Virus record (IMG/VR): IMGVR_UViG_3300049216_000109 | Coordinates: 1-60,226 of that record | Origin: a virus | DNA length: 60,226 bases | Strand: one strand, 5' to 3' | Shown here: positions 3,649 through 27,584 of the stretch, in pieces | Position numbering within the stretch: position 1 is the stretch's first letter | How the letters are laid out: each line of letters begins with the position of its first letter | Program-made: the position numbers and the translations under genes | Notes under the pieces: generated by a model | The model's input: only the letters and a program-made list of their open reading frames with translations | The model's database searches: none | Told to the model about the DNA's origin: nothing

Positions 3649-4203
<555 letters not shown>

Positions 4204-14115: not shown

Positions 14116-14269
14116 TCATGTTCTATGTGGTCACAGAATGTATCAAGGTAAAGTAGTAATGGCTGCCTGTTCTTGTGGGGAAATTACCAATTATCGAGTT
14201 CCTCTGAATGACCTAAAAGAGTTTGTGTGCCCAAGAGACCCAAATCGCGAAGGAGTAAAACGTGGGTAA
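14108..14269 (+). CDS. Small zinc-finger-like protein, 53 aa
   Basis: It starts inside the helicase gene (8-base overlap). MTDHVLCGHRM, ACSCGEI and FVCPRDP give a Cys/His set compatible with one zinc site. No known family. Confidence 0.55.
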   Translation: MTDHVLCGHRMYQGKVVMAACSCGEITNYRVPLNDLKEFVCPRDPNREGVKRG

Positions 14270-14804
14270 ATATAGCAAGTTTAAAGATTCTATGACTTCT
14301 TTTACTATTGAACCTGAGTATCAAGACAGGGTCAATAATGAAAAGGATCGAGTAAAGAGAATGTTACTCGAGGAAGGTAAAAAAGGTTCTATAAGTGAGT
14401 TTGCTGAAGTTTTGCTAAAGGCTCGCTTAGAAAAGGCTCGCTTAGAAAAGTTAGAGAAAGCTGAAAATCTAACTATCGAAGCAATGACTCAAATTCTAGT
14501 GGAACTCATGGAGGATGAAGCATTAACCAATGTGAAGATGGACAATGGTGTTTCTATGTCTATCAAAGATGACGTCTACTGCAACGTAGAAAACAAACAG
14601 CTCTTTAATCAATGGATTAAGGAGACAGGTCAAGAAGACCTTCTCACGGTGAACTACCAGACAATGGCATCAATTGTCAAGAAACGCCTCTCTGGTGAGT
14701 TAACTATTGGTGAAGGTGAAGAAACAATTCCACCTGGAATTAACACGTACTTTAAACAGGGAATCATGGTAAGAGGAGCGAAAAACCTTGGCATCGAAGA
14801 CTGA
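14262..14804 (+). CDS. Hypothetical replication-module protein, 180 aa (GTG start)
   Basis: GTG 14262 is preceded by AAGGAG. A charged coiled-coil (LLKARLEKARLEKLEKAE, with an exact 7-residue repeat) separates an N-terminal region from a C-terminal part ending PPGINTYFKQGIMVRGAKNL. It lies directly before the ssDNA-binding-like gene and overlaps it. No function is assigned. Confidence 0.6.
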   Translation: MGKYSKFKDSMTSFTIEPEYQDRVNNEKDRVKRMLLEEGKKGSISEFAEVLLKARLEKARLEKLEKAENLTIEAMTQILVELMEDEALTNVKMDNGVSMSIKDDVYCNVENKQLFNQWIKETGQEDLLTVNYQTMASIVKKRLSGELTIGEGEETIPPGINTYFKQGIMVRGAKNLGIED

Positions 14805-15603
14805 ATTGACAACTAAATCAGGTACTGAGCTTACTCAAATTGAGCAAGTTCCCGAGTTTCTCAAGTCTCACATCGGTCAGGCTGCTGGACTTGAGGACGT
14901 AGAGCAGAGTGATATTCTTATCCCACGTTTGGGACTCTGTCAAGCTCTTTCTCCTCAAAAGAGAAAGTCACACGCTTCATACATCGAAGGTCTTAAGGAA
15001 GGGGACCTGTTCAACACAGTAACTCAAGAAGTGTATGGTTCTGAATTGGAAGTGGTTCTTCTCTTCTTCTTCAAGAATCGTATCAAGTACTTCCCGATCG
15101 ATTCTGGTGGGGGCATAGACTGCATATCGCCAAATGGAATTGACCAAGGTCGTATTTCTCCTGATGGCTGTTCTGTGTGCCGGTATTCTCAGTTTGGTAA
15201 CGGAGAAGACCAAGAAGAAGGTAAGAAACAGTCTGCCCCTGAGTGCACGATGTATCACAACTTGATGGCTTTCATAACAAGCGATAAGTCCCCAATTGCT
15301 ATTAGCTTTAAGTCTACCGGACTCAAGGTAACTAAGCAGCTACTAGCTCAGATTCGCATGTCGCGACTGCCGATGTATGCTAAGAAGTATACCATCTCAG
15401 TTGTGACAGCAAAAGCAGGCCAGAATGAGTGGTTCGAGAAAAGGATTACTCCTAATGGTTTTGTGGATGCTACGATGTATGCTGAGATGGAGAAAAACTT
15501 CGAGCAACTCAAGGCAGCTAACGTTAAGGTTGATACTACTGGTGAAGGTGATGAGTCCTTCAACATAGGTAATGAGCCTTATCACACAGAAACGGAACTC
15601 TAA
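14788..15603 (+). CDS. ssDNA-binding-like protein, 271 aa (TTG start)
   Basis: TTG 14788 follows GAGGAG. QSDILIPRLGLCQALSPQ, LKEGDLFNTVTQEVYG and VVLLFFFKNRI are the blocks of a widespread phage family often placed with replication proteins and annotated as ssDNA-binding or hypothetical. CSVCRYS and CTMYHN add a possible zinc site. The C-terminus is acidic (GEGDESF). The ssDNA-binding role is inferred from context. Confidence 0.55.
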   Translation: MASKTELTTKSGTELTQIEQVPEFLKSHIGQAAGLEDVEQSDILIPRLGLCQALSPQKRKSHASYIEGLKEGDLFNTVTQEVYGSELEVVLLFFFKNRIKYFPIDSGGGIDCISPNGIDQGRISPDGCSVCRYSQFGNGEDQEEGKKQSAPECTMYHNLMAFITSDKSPIAISFKSTGLKVTKQLLAQIRMSRLPMYAKKYTISVVTAKAGQNEWFEKRITPNGFVDATMYAEMEKNFEQLKAANVKVDTTGEGDESFNIGNEPYHTETEL

Positions 15604-21172: not shown

Positions 21173-21309
21173 GGTCTCTCGAAAGAGAGGCCCTTATAGG
21201 AGCACTAGTTGTTGGAGTAAAATAGGGCACGATAGAATCAAGGTTCTATTGAGCATGGTCGAAAGCCCCTCTTCACCTAGTGCTCCTATAAGGGTATATC
21301 CCTTATAGA
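21173..21309 (+). ncRNA. Leader RNA with mutually exclusive helices
   Basis: GGGTCTCTC-GAAA-GAGAGGCCC (21173-21194) is a GNRA-capped hairpin, possibly terminating the upstream gene. Its 3' end overlaps an 18-bp perfect arm CCCTTATAGGAGCACTAG (21192-21209) that pairs with 21278-21295. That second arm can instead pair with CCCTTATAG at 21301-21309. Inside are ATAGAA/TTCTAT and AGGGC/GCCCCT pairings. Competing helices are typical of attenuators or riboswitches. It precedes the nucleotide-kinase operon; no T-run follows the last helix. Confidence 0.65.
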
Positions 21310-21381
21310 TCACCACTCATTTGTTAGAGTAGTAATTTCTAGCTATGACCTTAGGTGTGAAGTTGACACGAGGAAACAGTT

Positions 21382-22314
21382 ATGGGTAGAGTAGTGATTC
21401 TTGAAGGTCCGGACGGAGGTGGGAAAACTACCTTAGCGAAAAGACTTATAAATGAAGGTTTTGAGTATAGACATGAAGGGCCTCCACCTCCTGAGATGGA
21501 TAGAGTGGCTCACTACTTAAGAATACTTCATGACTCAGTAGAATCTGGAAAAAACATCGTTCACGACCGGTTATGGCTTGGAGAAAGAATCTATGGCCCT
21601 ATAGCTAGAGGCGTAGATAAGTTAGGTGATGAAGGTCAAAGGCTATTTGAAAGACTTCACAGGTCTAAGTCTATTCACCAGTACATTTGCACTCCTAACA
21701 TAGGGGCAGCTAGAGCTAATTATAGAATTAAAATTAGCGAAGCTGATGATTTTCTAAAGTCCACTGAAAAGTGGGAAAAGGTGTATACCAACTACGTGAG
21801 TTGGCTTAAGTCAAACCCAGTTATGGCTCAGTTATATGACTATACACTAGATTCTAATCATGACCGAATAGTGAGTGAGATTTTCTCATTCCAAAACGCT
21901 TTAAGAGTTCTTCCTACAGGTACTATAGGTTCTCCTGATGCTAGACTGTTGTTCGTCGGAGATAGACCTAACCACAGAACAATAGATGTTCCTTTCTTTT
22001 CTCTCAAGGGCTCTAGTGCTTACCTCAATAAAACACTTAGTAAGTGCTTACTAGATGAGTCTGAGATTGCTTTTTCTAATGCCAGGTCCCACACAGGGAA
22101 AGAACATGATTTAGGAGCAATACTGTCCAAGTTGCCTAAGTTAGAACATATTTTCTTGATGGGGGCTATAGCTAGAGAATGGTTCTATGCTAGAAGTAAC
22201 GTGAAGACGACTTACAAGATTTCCTGCATACCTCACCCCTCTTATCTAAAGAGGTTCAAAGGGCACAACCTATCAGTTATGGCTGACATAATCAATAAGG
22301 AGATATATGGCTGA
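21382..22314 (+). CDS. Deoxynucleotide-monophosphate-kinase-like protein fused to a UDG-like domain, 310 aa
   Basis: Residues 1-165 are a thymidylate-kinase-like P-loop domain: EGPDGGGKT (8-16), HDRLWLGERIYGP (61-73). Residues 188-310 resemble the uracil-DNA-glycosylase superfamily (family 4/5-like): LLFVGDRPN (189-197), PFF, a central LGAILSKLP helix and HPSYLKRF (285-292). The fusion suggests an enzyme acting on modified nucleotides or bases. It overlaps the ThyA-like gene by 8 bases and heads the candidate DNA-modification operon. RBS GAGGAAAC. Confidence 0.75.
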   Translation: MGRVVILEGPDGGGKTTLAKRLINEGFEYRHEGPPPPEMDRVAHYLRILHDSVESGKNIVHDRLWLGERIYGPIARGVDKLGDEGQRLFERLHRSKSIHQYICTPNIGAARANYRIKISEADDFLKSTEKWEKVYTNYVSWLKSNPVMAQLYDYTLDSNHDRIVSEIFSFQNALRVLPTGTIGSPDARLLFVGDRPNHRTIDVPFFSLKGSSAYLNKTLSKCLLDESEIAFSNARSHTGKEHDLGAILSKLPKLEHIFLMGAIAREWFYARSNVKTTYKISCIPHPSYLKRFKGHNLSVMADIINKEIYG

Positions 22315-23155
22315 GAAAGTATACGGATCTACATTTGGAATAGCTTGGACAGAATTACTTCGTCGACTAATTGAGAGAGGTAAAGTCTCTGAACCTCGTA
22401 GTATGGTGACAAAGGAAATACTCAACGTTACTCTAGAGGTTGAGAATGGTTTAGCTAACATCTTAGTTAATAATATACGAGACTTAAACTACAGATTCAT
22501 GATCGCCGAATGGTTATGGATTCAAGGCGGACTGAATGACGTGAATATACTAGCAAAGTACAATTCAGTCATGAAGAAGTTCTCAGATGATGGCGAGATT
22601 CTGTCTGGAGCATACGGCCCAAGGCTAATGCCGCAGATTCCATATGTTCTGGAGAGCCTGAACAAACCAGACTCTCGACAGGCTGTGGCCACAATTTGGA
22701 CCCCTAGCCCTGAGGATTCTAAAGATATTCCCTGTACTATATCTTTGCAGTGGATGATACGCGGAGGAAAAGTCCACTGTACAGCTAACATGAGAAGTTC
22801 GGACGTCTGGCTCGGACTTCCTTATGACTTCTTTACGTTTTCTCAGTTGACCAATTACGTAGCTATGAGACTAGGTAGACCTGTAGGTTCAGTGACTATG
22901 AATCTAGCCTCCTCTCATATCTATGAAGAGCATTGGGATAAAGGAAAGTTAGCTTCTTATAATGCTACCAAGAATACGATATGGTCGCCCCATATTCCTA
23001 GAAGTGAGCCTGTTCCTGATGCTGATGCTATAAAAGCAATGTTGGAGAATGATTTACACACTTATGTGGGTAAGTTCTGGAATAACTATAGACTAGCTTT
23101 AAAGCAAGATAAAAAGTTCTCACTGGAGGTGTTAAGTGGACTCTGTAAGAATTGA
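22307..23155 (+). CDS. Thymidylate-synthase-family enzyme, probably dCMP (hydroxy)methylase
   Basis: 282 residues with ThyA landmarks: EWLWIQGG, GAYGPRL, DSRQ (122-125), catalytic Cys143 in DIPCTISLQW, RSSD (163-166), and HIY (204-206). The motif LGLPYD (169-174) has Asp174 where dUMP-specific enzymes have Asn (LGVPFN). T4 dCMP hydroxymethylase has Asp at this place, and Asn-to-Asp changes shift ThyA toward dCMP. This predicts a cytosine-based product. The overlap with both neighbours indicates coupled expression. Confidence 0.8.
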   Translation: MAEKVYGSTFGIAWTELLRRLIERGKVSEPRSMVTKEILNVTLEVENGLANILVNNIRDLNYRFMIAEWLWIQGGLNDVNILAKYNSVMKKFSDDGEILSGAYGPRLMPQIPYVLESLNKPDSRQAVATIWTPSPEDSKDIPCTISLQWMIRGGKVHCTANMRSSDVWLGLPYDFFTFSQLTNYVAMRLGRPVGSVTMNLASSHIYEEHWDKGKLASYNATKNTIWSPHIPRSEPVPDADAIKAMLENDLHTYVGKFWNNYRLALKQDKKFSLEVLSGLCKN

Positions 23156-23594
23156 TCGACCTAGCAAGCATCAATACTACTTAAAGATGTTAGACTTAGT
23201 AGCATCTAGAAGTACCTGCATAAGACGAGCTGTTGGAGCAATAATAGTAGATGGAGATGGTCATGTTCTCAGTACTGGGTATAATGGTGTTGTTAGGGGT
23301 TTTGACCACTGTGTTGACAGTCCTTGTGCTGGCGCTAACGATAGACCTGGTGAAACGTCAAACTGCATGGCAGTCCATGCGGAACAAAATGCTTTGTTGC
23401 AGTGCACTAGTCTTGACCGTGCTAGGACTATTTATTGTAGTTGCCTTCCGTGTTTCACTTGCGCCAAACTCATCTGTAATACTAAGATAGACACTGTGAT
23501 CTGCTTAGAAGATTATGCTGATCATCGTGGACTTGATCTAATGATTAAGAGTGAGATAACAGTTAATGTAGCTGGAAAGGTATATAATGGCTAG
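23136..23594 (+). CDS. dCMP deaminase, 152 aa
   Basis: HAEQNAL (His81, catalytic Glu83) and CLPCFTC (Cys106, Cys109) form the cytidine-deaminase zinc site; GYNGVVRGFDHC is the nucleotide-binding loop of dCMP deaminases. It converts dCMP to dUMP. GTG start with GGAGG upstream, overlapping the ThyA-like gene by 20 bases. If the neighbour uses dCMP, the two would compete for the same pool. Confidence 0.9.
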   Translation: MDSVRIDRPSKHQYYLKMLDLVASRSTCIRRAVGAIIVDGDGHVLSTGYNGVVRGFDHCVDSPCAGANDRPGETSNCMAVHAEQNALLQCTSLDRARTIYCSCLPCFTCAKLICNTKIDTVICLEDYADHRGLDLMIKSEITVNVAGKVYNG

Positions 23595-25479
23595 GATTCT
23601 TCCCAAGCCTGGGATGGTAGGAAATCTATTCAGTGGTCATTCAGTAGACTCTGGGTGGAGAGCTCCTCAAGAATTACCTGACATTTCAGGTTATCCAGCT
23701 GATGCTAGGTTTGGATTAGATACCGAGTTTACATTTACTGATAAGAATATCCAGAACGCTAAGCAGGTTGGAATATCTATATGTACTCCTGACAATAAGA
23801 AGTTTTACTTGCCTCACGGGCACTATGGTGGTGGAAACTTAGATGAGAATTCTGTTCGTCGGTGGGGTAAAACTCAGTTAGCTGGGAGACACCTCTGTAT
23901 TCTAAATGCTAAAGCTGACATAGTAGTAATGAGAAATTGGGGATTAGACCTTGAGGAAATAGGAGCTAAGGTACATGACCCTGCATTTAAGGCCGCTCTT
24001 CTAGACGAGACTAGACGTAGATTCAATCTGCAAGAATTAGCTGAGGATATTCTAGGCGACAAAAAAGTTGGGCTAGAAGGAGACAAGTCCAATATAGCTG
24101 AGATGTCTGCTTCAGAGGTAGGCTCTTACGCAGAGCATGACGCTTACCTACACCGAGAGTTAGATATAGTTCAACAAAAACTAATTGATGAAGAAGGCTT
24201 AACTGCAGTTTGTGAATTAGAGGACCAGTTAATCTACTCAACAGTAGCTATGGAAACTATAGGAGCTTTGATTGATAGACCAAAGCTTGAGTGCTGGGTT
24301 AAGGAGGTTGACTTAGCTCATCAATCTGCTATACTAGAACTCCATAGAACGACAGGTCTAAAGATTAACCCTAATTCTAGTAAGGATTTAGCTAAGTTAT
24401 TTCATCATTATAGTCTTCCTATACCTACTAGAGAGGAAGAACTTGGAGGCGGGGAGACTTTTGAAGAAGAGTATCTTTCAAAAGTAGAACACCCTTGCGT
24501 GAGACTTGTTATAGCCGCTCGTAAGCTTCACTCATTGAACACTAAGTACTTAAAAAAGTACTTAAAGAATCTAGACCATAGCAACATTCTTCGCTACAGT
24601 CTTCATCAGCTACGTGGTGATGAACATGGTACAGTTACTGGGCGCTACGCGTCAGCTGCTCCGAGTAGCGGCGGTATCAACGTTCAACAAGTAATGAAAG
24701 TTGAAAGTCAATTAGAAGAAGAGTTTATTCGTGATTGGATTGTTCGTGAGCTTTTTATTCCTGCTGACGGTAAGATTTATGTTTCTGCTGATGCTAGTCA
24801 GATTGAGTTTAGGTGGTTTGCTCATTACTCTAAGTCAGAAAGACTTATAAGAGAATATAATGAAGACCCGACAATGGACTTCCATCAGTTAGTAGCTAAT
24901 ATGCTAGGCCAAAAACGCAAGGATGCGAAGCATAATAACTTTGGAAAACTGTACACGATGGGAATCCCAAAGTTAGCTAGAAAGCTAGGGTTATCCTGTA
25001 CTTGCGGGTGTGACACTAAGGAACAGTGGAATAGAGCAAATCACCACGCAGAATGTAGGATGAGAAAAGCTTTTGCTATAAGTAAGGAATATGATGAGAA
25101 GTTTCCTGAGGCAAAAGTTCTCTCTAATGAGGCTATGAAAGTAGCTAAAAATAGGGGCTATGTAAGAACAGTAATGGGCCGCCGTAGGCGTTACCCTACT
25201 AAAGAGAGACTACACTCTGCCTTGAATGCGATCATACAAGGCACAGCTGCTGATACCTTAAAGATAAAACTCTTAGATACCTATAACAATAGAAAACTAT
25301 TGAAATTAGATTTAAGAGCTACGGTACATGATGAGTTGGATGGGGACATTGACCCAGATCCGAAATATAAGAAAATGTTTAAAGAGTTACTAGAGTCACC
25401 TGATTCTAGAATTGCTTGTAGAGTACCTTTGCTGTGGGATATAGAAACTGGAGCTAATTGGCGGGAGGCCACTGAATAA
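23587..25479 (+). CDS. Family A DNA polymerase, 630 aa
   Basis: Exonuclease domain: DTEFTF (D45, E47), a YAEHDAYL motif. Polymerase: GTVTGRYAS, motif A DASQIEFRW, motif B RKDAKHNNFGKLY (K and F as in Pol I), motif C VHDELDGD. All catalytic carboxylates are present. Just after motif B there is a Cys/His-rich insert (LSCTCGCD...HHAEC) not usual for Pol I. It has no 5' nuclease domain. It should be the replicative polymerase. Confidence 0.95.
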   Translation: MARILPKPGMVGNLFSGHSVDSGWRAPQELPDISGYPADARFGLDTEFTFTDKNIQNAKQVGISICTPDNKKFYLPHGHYGGGNLDENSVRRWGKTQLAGRHLCILNAKADIVVMRNWGLDLEEIGAKVHDPAFKAALLDETRRRFNLQELAEDILGDKKVGLEGDKSNIAEMSASEVGSYAEHDAYLHRELDIVQQKLIDEEGLTAVCELEDQLIYSTVAMETIGALIDRPKLECWVKEVDLAHQSAILELHRTTGLKINPNSSKDLAKLFHHYSLPIPTREEELGGGETFEEEYLSKVEHPCVRLVIAARKLHSLNTKYLKKYLKNLDHSNILRYSLHQLRGDEHGTVTGRYASAAPSSGGINVQQVMKVESQLEEEFIRDWIVRELFIPADGKIYVSADASQIEFRWFAHYSKSERLIREYNEDPTMDFHQLVANMLGQKRKDAKHNNFGKLYTMGIPKLARKLGLSCTCGCDTKEQWNRANHHAECRMRKAFAISKEYDEKFPEAKVLSNEAMKVAKNRGYVRTVMGRRRRYPTKERLHSALNAIIQGTAADTLKIKLLDTYNNRKLLKLDLRATVHDELDGDIDPDPKYKKMFKELLESPDSRIACRVPLLWDIETGANWREATE

Positions 25480-25713
25480 ATGGTAGATATAACTTTAGTT
25501 GAACACCTGTATAATGACCTTAGTGGTGGAGCAAAAGACGTGCTAAACCAGCTGGTAAAAGTAACTTGGGATGGTAATATAAGTTCAAAGGTAGGTAGAG
25601 ACGAGCTTATAAATAAAGGTCTAGCCACTAGATTTGAAGGATTTACAGTACTAAGTGATTCCGGCTTAAGGGTGCTACAGATTTTAGGTAAACTAGAAAG
25701 GTTGACTCAATGA
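25480..25713 (+). CDS. Hypothetical small protein, 77 aa
   Basis: It starts directly after the polymerase stop and overlaps the next gene. The helical pattern with LINKGLATRFEGFTVLSDSGLRVL suggests a small winged helix. No family recognised. Confidence 0.55.
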   Translation: MVDITLVEHLYNDLSGGAKDVLNQLVKVTWDGNISSKVGRDELINKGLATRFEGFTVLSDSGLRVLQILGKLERLTQ

Positions 25714-26726
25714 AAATACTTATAACTGGGTACACCACAAGAATGACAGGAAGTAAATGGGTATCAATGGACTACATAACCTTTAGTACTCTTCTAGAAG
25801 AGATACTTAAGGACATGGGTCATGAAGTAGAGCGCCGTAAAGTCCTGATTGGTGAAGAACTAAATCATGTATATGATTTTGCATTCTGCGGGGTTGCTCC
25901 TCTAAGTTCTATGACGTCTAGTAGAGTCTGTGAAACTCATTACGCTATGGACTCTATGGTAGGCAGATGTGTAACTTACGCAGATGATTGGAGTTTCTGT
26001 GGGTATGGCGACTCTGTTCGCTATACTCTAGGTCGTTGGGAACAGTATTTGAACTACAAGAGATTTCCTTACTCTAATTCTGTAATTGAGCAGACTCGAC
26101 AATCTCTGGAGTTAATGATGAGAGTAGATGAGCTCTATAACGCTCCTGTATTAGCTCCGATGTTTCCATGGGGTAATCATAGATTCTTGATGACAGGTAG
26201 TAAAGGTGATGGTAACTATAAAGCTAAGCTAATTACGGTAGACCCTAGTGCTTGGGTGGAATTCCCTAATGTGGATATTCCTAAGCCCTCTCAGAGAACT
26301 AGGCAGTGGGTAATGGCAGCTCTAGCTGATCATACTCCTTGGATAAAGAAACAACACTTAAGGCTTCCAATAGTTTATATTGGAAATAAGAGAATGGAAG
26401 GAGTTAGAGTACTCAATGAAACAGATACTGTGCGCCTCTTTAGTAATAGTTTTGGTGTGCTTTCCGTGGGTTATCCTTCTGCTGGTTCTGGTTGGTGGAG
26501 GACTCGTTATCTTAACGCGGCCTGGGCAGAGACGTTAATTTACTCCGACCCTAGGGACGCCGCAACAATGGGCGAAGCTTTCAGGGGGTCTGCTGATGAA
26601 TTTGAGAGCATAATAACTGATAATGAGTATCTTCAAAGAGTAGAGGCCCAAGCTAACTGGCTCTATGGAAATATATCAGACAAGAGTACAGTACAGCATA
26701 CTCTAGAAAGGTTGATGAAGAAATGA
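25710..26726 (+). CDS. GT-B-like glycosyltransferase, 338 aa
   Basis: The N-terminal half begins MKILITGYTTRMTGS with a following helix and EILKDMGHEVERRKV, the Rossmann start typical of GT-B enzymes. The C-terminal half has LSVGYPSAGSGWWRTRYLNAAWAETLIYSDPRDA and ends with alternating helices, as in GT-B sugar-nucleotide lobes. Similar phage proteins of unknown or DNA-glycosylating function are known to me. Being beside a dCMP-type ThyA homologue and the polymerase, it may glycosylate modified bases; protein glycosylation is the alternative. Confidence 0.6.
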   Translation: MKILITGYTTRMTGSKWVSMDYITFSTLLEEILKDMGHEVERRKVLIGEELNHVYDFAFCGVAPLSSMTSSRVCETHYAMDSMVGRCVTYADDWSFCGYGDSVRYTLGRWEQYLNYKRFPYSNSVIEQTRQSLELMMRVDELYNAPVLAPMFPWGNHRFLMTGSKGDGNYKAKLITVDPSAWVEFPNVDIPKPSQRTRQWVMAALADHTPWIKKQHLRLPIVYIGNKRMEGVRVLNETDTVRLFSNSFGVLSVGYPSAGSGWWRTRYLNAAWAETLIYSDPRDAATMGEAFRGSADEFESIITDNEYLQRVEAQANWLYGNISDKSTVQHTLERLMKK

Positions 26727-27205
26727 AAGAATCTTCTTATCTATCGGCTCTTTCTCTAGATATAGAAAAACAGATAGGTGGAAAGGTTATAAAGACTAGT
26801 GACAGGTCTACTCTTGGTCTTCCAGACTCGACTCACATTCTTGATGGAATAGTAACATACATCGAAGCTAAGATTGGAGATAAAGTAGAATTCGACTTAG
26901 ATGGTGTTCCATACGTACAGCCGTGGAGAACAGTAAAAAAAGACTTAAGGCAATACGAAGTATGTAAGTCTATGGCGAAGCATGCCTCTGTAGTTTACGC
27001 GATCTACTATCCTGAGATTAAGAAATCAGCTATTATAACAGTTGAAGTGTTAGCTCAGTTCCGGCCTGTAGAAGGTGAAACTACTCTCCCTTATCTCTGT
27101 AGTGAAGAAGTGCTATGCAGTGGAAGAGGAATTAAGCAACTTAAACAAGTTATGGCTCGACACAGAAAGGAAGTATATGGAAGACTTAGTAAGAGCTTTT
27201 CATGA
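26723..27205 (+). CDS. PD-(D/E)XK nuclease-like protein, 160 aa
   Basis: GLPDSTHILDGIVTYIEAKI carries the D...ExK active site, and the following DLRQYEVCKSMAKHASVVYAIYYP fits the rest of the fold. Holliday-junction resolvase or RecB-like nuclease are the usual phage roles. It starts within the glycosyltransferase stop (ATGA). Confidence 0.7.
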   Translation: MKESSYLSALSLDIEKQIGGKVIKTSDRSTLGLPDSTHILDGIVTYIEAKIGDKVEFDLDGVPYVQPWRTVKKDLRQYEVCKSMAKHASVVYAIYYPEIKKSAIITVEVLAQFRPVEGETTLPYLCSEEVLCSGRGIKQLKQVMARHRKEVYGRLSKSFS

Positions 27206-27584
27206 AAAGTACGGTCACCTAGTTTCTAAACAACCTACAACTCTTATACCAGAATCTGTTAAAGATTTGAGAAAAGAACTCATATCCGAAGAATATGAGG
27301 AGCTTTTAGAGGCTATTGAACTTAATAGTTTAACTGATATAGCAGATGGAGCGGCGGATCTTATATATGTTATTATAGGAACATGCTTATCATATGGAAT
27401 TCCTATTGAACGTATATTTAGAGAAGTTCATAACTCTAACATGACTAAGACTGCTATTAAGGCAGAGAGCGGCCAGAAGTATGGGACTAAAACACCTAAA
27501 GGCCCTGACTATAAAGCTCCTGACATACATAGAATTCTGTTTAATCCAAAAACTAGTACTCTTCTTGAGACTCTTAATAGCTAG
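27177..27584 (+). CDS. MazG-like nucleotide pyrophosphohydrolase, 135 aa
   Basis: SEEYEELLEAIELN (EExxE) and DIADGAADLIYVIIGTCLSYGI (D-x2-D) are the magnesium-binding motifs of all-alpha NTP pyrophosphohydrolases. NMTK and APDI follow as in phage MazG-like proteins. Start ATG 27177 follows AAAGGAAG. Such enzymes trim the nucleotide pool, possibly removing unmodified dCTP or alarmones; the substrate is unknown. Confidence 0.8.
   Translation: MEDLVRAFHEKYGHLVSKQPTTLIPESVKDLRKELISEEYEELLEAIELNSLTDIADGAADLIYVIIGTCLSYGIPIERIFREVHNSNMTKTAIKAESGQKYGTKTPKGPDYKAPDIHRILFNPKTSTLLETLNS

Follow-up and report, generated by a model that had tools for sequence, protein, structure and literature searches.

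A thymidylate kinase-like/uracil-DNA glycosylase-like fusion in a candidate T-even-like cytosine hypermodification operon of mostly uncultured phages

Among the closest described systems to the locus reported here is the T-even pathway, in which dC is replaced by glycosylated 5-hydroxymethyl-dC (T4 gp42, gp56, gp1, a-gt, b-gt, cd), and in phage XP12 5-methyl-dCMP is made by a ThyA-type route. Within T4 gp42, Asp179 is required for the recognition and protonation of cytosine and Cys148 acts as the nucleophile; this Asp settles the use of dCMP and does not separate methyl from hydroxymethyl transfer (PMC6400193). A second point of reference is the cultured Stenotrophomonas phage AXL3. Of 37 restriction enzymes tried on its DNA, 35, each with G or C in its recognition site, failed to cut, and only TasI and Tru1I, whose sites are A/T-only, did so; the authors proposed a route from dCMP via dUMP and dTMP to dTDP, and the phage also encodes ThyX for dTMP (PMC7504290).

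Comparison of the T-even pathway with a gene block in IMGVR_UViG_3300049216_000109, a 60,226-bp IMG/VR viral record that was analysed whole and is referred to below as the window, revealed a shared set of a predicted Asp-type dCMP hydroxymethylase, a dNMP kinase, a dCMP deaminase, an NTP pyrophosphohydrolase (NTP-PPase) and a candidate GT-B transferase. In contrast to the T-even system, the window joins a TMPK-like kinase and a UDG domain in one protein, has a family A polymerase and a GT-B-like protein of another sequence family (phrog_14998), and groups the set compactly as an operon, within a phage that has Pam3-like genes. This phage carries contractile-tail genes (sheath, baseplate, portal, terminase), and upstream of the block, on the plus strand, encodes a helicase, Pam3-type proteins, a primase, an exonuclease and a UvrD helicase. 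Relatives of Pam3 gp33 and gp34 at 14262-15603 (Pfam DUF7307 and Pam3_Gp34) place it near Pam3-like small myoviruses, and an Imm-5-like putative immunity protein domain lies at 3649-4203 (Pfam PF21805, E = 1.7e-06). GATC is scarce in the whole window (107 observed vs 194.5 expected, 0.55), and most other 4-bp palindromes are found at about expectation; palindrome counts as a sign of G/C-site avoidance were dropped as uninformative, there being no general avoidance except of GATC.

The block lies on the plus strand throughout, and its genes between 21382 and 26726 abut or share 4-20 bases with their neighbours in an operon-like manner. It begins with the 310-aa kinase-UDG fusion (21382..22314), composed of a TMPK-like dNMP kinase (residues 1 to ~175) and a UDG-superfamily domain (residues ~178-310), followed by a 282-aa ThyA homologue predicted to be a dCMP 5-hydroxymethylase (22307..23155), a dCMP deaminase with HAE and PCxxC-type zinc motifs (23136..23594; PF00383, 2.2e-19), the family A DNA polymerase PolA (23587..25479; PF00476, 9.9e-50), a small 77-aa ORF with a counterpart in some relatives (25480..25713; L007, L025) and the 338-aa GT-B-like protein, a candidate hmC glycosyltransferase (25710..26726). 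Next comes a conserved 160-aa protein (26723..27205) for which a family match was sought and none found; an IEAK stretch, PD-(D/E)XK-like by eye only, makes it a possible nuclease. A MazG/PRA-PH-type NTP pyrophosphohydrolase and possible dCTPase (27075..27584), conserved downstream of the GT-B-like gene, completes the block; its start is uncertain, as relatives point to a shorter protein. Sugar-nucleotide genes were not recognised within the window. The gene set named in an earlier note on this DNA was found in order and on the plus strand, through open reading frames and, for the fusion, ThyA, deaminase and PolA, through family matches; the span proposed there (21173-26726) contains these genes, yet starts upstream of the first ATG at 21382 and leaves out the MazG/PRA-PH gene.

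The kinase domain of the fusion matched phrog_761 ('thymidylate kinase', 3.6e-13), with a Pfam score under the cut-off, and its residues K15, D62 and R63 (P-loop GPDGxGKT, DR motif) are kept in 64/64 rows of the fusion alignment, which holds the window twice (WIN and L026). The UDG domain, with the motifs GDRPN, DVPF, SNA and HPSYLKRF, reached 23.4 bits against PF03167 (7.1e-05) where the Pfam cut-off is 24.3, and the corresponding domain of the relative L056 lies above it with 29.4 bits. An AF2 model of the fusion was confident (pLDDT 89.8, pTM 0.86), and Foldseek matched its kinase half to thymidylate and deoxynucleoside kinases and its UDG half to the family-4 UDGs of T. maritima and T. thermophilus and to UdgX (1l9g, 1vk2, 1ui0; E ~1e-7 to 1e-5), while the A5 profile matched 1ui0 with E = 0.0011. 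At the level of the modelled folds, these matches confirm a TMPK-fold kinase joined to a UDG-superfamily domain, the earlier note having proposed a kinase/UDG-like fusion.

A single-sequence scan returned 0 viral relatives of the fusion, and an alignment/profile query returned 131 in IMG/VR; among the best 80 of these 131 and other loci, 63 distinct proteins, the window copy included, contain both domains. A scan of bacterial genomes gave partial P-loop matches only, with no bacterial fusion among the matches listed at that sensitivity. Two cultured phages are among the carriers of the kinase-UDG fusion: in AXL3 it is gp29, labelled 'thymidylate kinase' since 2020, and in Pseudoxanthomonas phage PW916 an ORF left without annotation. 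The fusion is common in uncultured phages and not peculiar to the window phage, and literature searches of open-licence papers found no published description of it; its earlier characterization as a new combination holds with regard to the literature, but not as a trait of this one phage. The order fusion-ThyA-deaminase-PolA-GT-(MazG) recurs in about ten further IMG/VR contigs, as far as the fetched stretches reach (L001-L007, L019 and L025, with L040, L042 and L044 added by later scans; in L019 the ThyA is split and the contig begins inside the fusion), and this recurrence takes the block far beyond chance.

The ThyA homologue (Pfam PF00303, E = 7.6e-23) was earlier described as having a dCMP-type active site, and its D174 indeed aligns with D179 of T4 gp42. 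This residue is Asp in every relative covering the site, including all loci picked for the fusion regardless of ThyA, and the nucleophile C143 (T4 C148) is invariant in the alignment. The same procedure returned Asp for T4 gp42 and Asn for the dUMP hydroxymethylase SPO1 gp29; Asn is also found in the second, td-type ThyA of Morganella and Providencia phages (Rgz1/PSTRCR_121), and the alignment of E. coli TS, whose determinant residue is Asn177, has no Asp at this position. The Asp at the determinant makes dCMP the likely substrate of the window enzyme, which could transfer a methyl instead of a hydroxymethyl group.

With regard to cultured relatives, the gp27-gp30 region of AXL3 and its counterpart in PW916 share with the window the kinase-UDG fusion (AXL3 gp29), the Asp-type ThyA, the dCMP deaminase and the NTP-PPase. 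The cutting pattern of AXL3 DNA would be expected if its C (or G) were modified. In contrast to the window, the stretch read showed no phrog_14998 GT, and upstream of the operon lies a methyltransferase, suggesting that the modification of AXL3 may differ.

The GT-B-like protein belongs to phrog_14998, a family without an assigned function, and the GT-B-like call of the earlier note has its support in fold and profile comparison only, Pfam and NCBIfam giving no match. An AF2 model from eight sequences was poor (pLDDT 51.7); its best PDB fold matches are GT-B enzymes (alpha-1,3-fucosyltransferase, E 1.4e-3, probability 0.99), and glycosyltransferases are frequent among the named viral matches. 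A 44-sequence profile aligned to T4 beta-GT in its C-terminal domain (E 3.6e-4, probability 37%), GWWR.RYLNAAWAE aligning with the sugar-nucleotide domain, and profile comparison with the PDB gave chance matches only. When single sequences served as targets alongside unrelated T4/RB69 proteins, T4 beta-GT and alpha-GT gave the top scores, though weak ones; a relationship to alpha-GT was rejected, as the signal disappeared once an alpha-GT profile was used. The GT lies within the fetched flanks of 37/60 fusion loci, and an Asp-type ThyA was found in eight of the nine named phages bearing it, phage C48C1 being the exception. We conclude that the window protein is a candidate GT-B glycosyltransferase, a weaker call than for the other genes.

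Cultured phages with this GT family include Rgz1, DSL-LC01 and Gordonia GMA2, and in the first two the homologue occurs beside sugar genes. In Morganella phage Rgz1 (L028 3372-6776) it is flanked by an arabinose-5-phosphate isomerase and a nucleotide-sugar protein, in a cluster that matches the proposed UDP-arabinose genes of RB69, and is a candidate arabinosyl-hmC transferase of Gualtarvirus phages; the transferase proposed for RB69 itself, ORF003c, is not detectably related to the window GT, whose profile gave no match to it. In Actinomycetia phage DSL-LC01 (L029 6992-9128) a homologue directly precedes UDP-galactopyranose mutase, a neighbour that suggests a furanose sugar on DNA. The differing neighbours indicate that the sugar may vary among phages.

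The UDG domain of the window shares with family-4 UDG and UdgX the fold, motif 1 G-[DE], the stacking Phe, the uracil-reading Asn and motif 2 HP[SQ], and differs by its HPxYxKRF motif and its position C-terminal to a kinase. Family-4 UDG carries a four-cysteine iron-sulfur cluster, whereas the window domain has two Cys only and no CxxC. Mapping of the pocket onto Tth UDGa, with residue roles taken from PMC5387724, placed E41, E47, F54, N80 and H155 at D194, T200, F205, N233 and H285 of the window; in Tth UDGa, N80 reads uracil N3 and O4, E47 blocks 5-methyl groups, and loss of the catalytic His lowers k2 by >3 orders of magnitude (PMC5387724). The Asn is kept in 64/64 rows and the stacking Phe in 62/64, whereas the thymine-excluding E47 is replaced, by T200 in the window and by Ser or Thr in most rows. 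The combination of a kept Asn and a replaced Glu suggests a pocket that reads a uracil-type base and may have room for a group at C5, for instance hydroxymethyl, and we infer that the domain does uracil-type (U/hmU) surveillance. The catalytic His is present in 37 of the 63 rows reaching the site, H285 of the window included, and one clade of 26 sequences has Pro instead. Within the L078-L124 fusions this clade has PPPLYHMQ in place of HPxYxKRF, with the catalytic His lost and the base-reading Asn retained; the window's own group retains HP[SQ][YF][LW][KR]RF. Proteins of the Pro clade are probably inefficient glycosylases, and the function shared by the fusions as a whole is, judging from these residues, not glycosylase activity. 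Overall, the UDG half combines a family-4/UdgX-like fold with a remodelled pocket and is not a canonical uracil glycosylase.

Pseudomonas phage PMBT14 encodes a DNA polymerase I carrying a family-4-type UDG at its N terminus (L034 10522-13026; Pfam 3.7e-24) and has a comparable operon with a kinase, an NTP-PPase, a ThyA homologue and a dCMP deaminase, and this fusion of a true UDG to PolA supports a link of the UDG domain to the pathway. MW202510 has an annotated 'G:T/U glycosylase', which lacks a UDG match in Pfam and was therefore left out of the stand-alone UDGs.

From the genes, folds, residues, conservation and co-occurrence, which are directly established, we infer each reaction, the sugar and the role of the UDG domain in the following proposal, to which we assign a probability of about 0.68, namely that the operon replaces dC by glycosylated 5-hydroxymethyl-dC in the T-even manner. 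The MazG-type enzyme would remove dCTP and yield dCMP, which the ThyA homologue would convert to 5hm-dCMP; the kinase domain would make 5hm-dCDP and a host kinase the triphosphate, PolA would incorporate 5hm-dCTP, and the GT-B-like protein would glycosylate the hmC of the DNA. The dCMP deaminase would feed dTMP synthesis and also risk dUMP and hm-dUMP, and the UDG-like domain probably recognises U or 5-hydroxymethyluracil and would excise it in proteins that retain the catalytic His, the window's included. The T-even-like pathway of the earlier note is supported in its cytosine hypermodification by the invariant ThyA Asp, the conserved gene order and the restriction resistance of AXL3 DNA; the glycosyl transfer and the sugar are not established.

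One alternative, which we consider unlikely, has the ThyA homologue producing 5-methyl-dCMP in the way of phage XP12, or else plain hmC, with the GT-B-like protein acting on a protein or a cell-surface glycan. The Asp determines dCMP use and leaves the choice between methyl and hydroxymethyl open (PMC6400193), and the AXL3-type operons have a methyltransferase instead of the phrog_14998 GT in the stretch read; against this, phage groups far removed from one another have the GT co-located with ThyA and the fusion, and the GT shows profile similarity to T4 beta-GT. Ordinary nucleotide metabolism, in which deaminase, thymidylate synthase and thymidylate kinase form a route to dTTP and the UDG repairs uracil, accords with the gene annotations and with the dTDP route of the AXL3 paper, but we consider it highly improbable given the Asp, not Asn, at the ThyA determinant and the presence in AXL3 of both ThyX for dTMP and restriction-resistant DNA (PMC7504290).

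Compatible with T-even-like hypermodification is the more tentative idea that the UDG domain is a non-enzymatic base-binding module, which guides the kinase by sensing hm-dCMP or hm-dUMP, or tethers it to the replisome. The retention of Asn and Phe where the catalytic His has become Pro, a loss that is so costly in Tth UDGa (PMC5387724), would fit such a module, but the His motif is intact in the window's group, and the UDG-PolA fusion of PMBT14 argues for action on DNA. Equally speculative is a kinase with built-in editing, in which a UDG-derived pocket with an opened C5 gate would destroy or withhold hm-dUMP, arising by deamination of hm-dCMP, or hmU in DNA, and so keep hmC genomes from filling with hmU. 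If true, this would to our knowledge be the first quality-control step of a phage for a hypermodified base, perhaps by a glycosidase at the nucleotide level.

New here are the TMPK-UDG fusion as a hallmark of the route, its breadth and a candidate transferase family. Under the proposal, a large and mainly uncultured set of phages would share cytosine hypermodification of the T-even style, with the kinase-UDG fusion beside an Asp-type ThyA as its genomic signature and phrog_14998 as a new candidate family of DNA glycosyltransferases. It raises the question of how an hmC-based phage guards against deamination to hmU, and the proposed modification itself would serve escape from bacterial defences.
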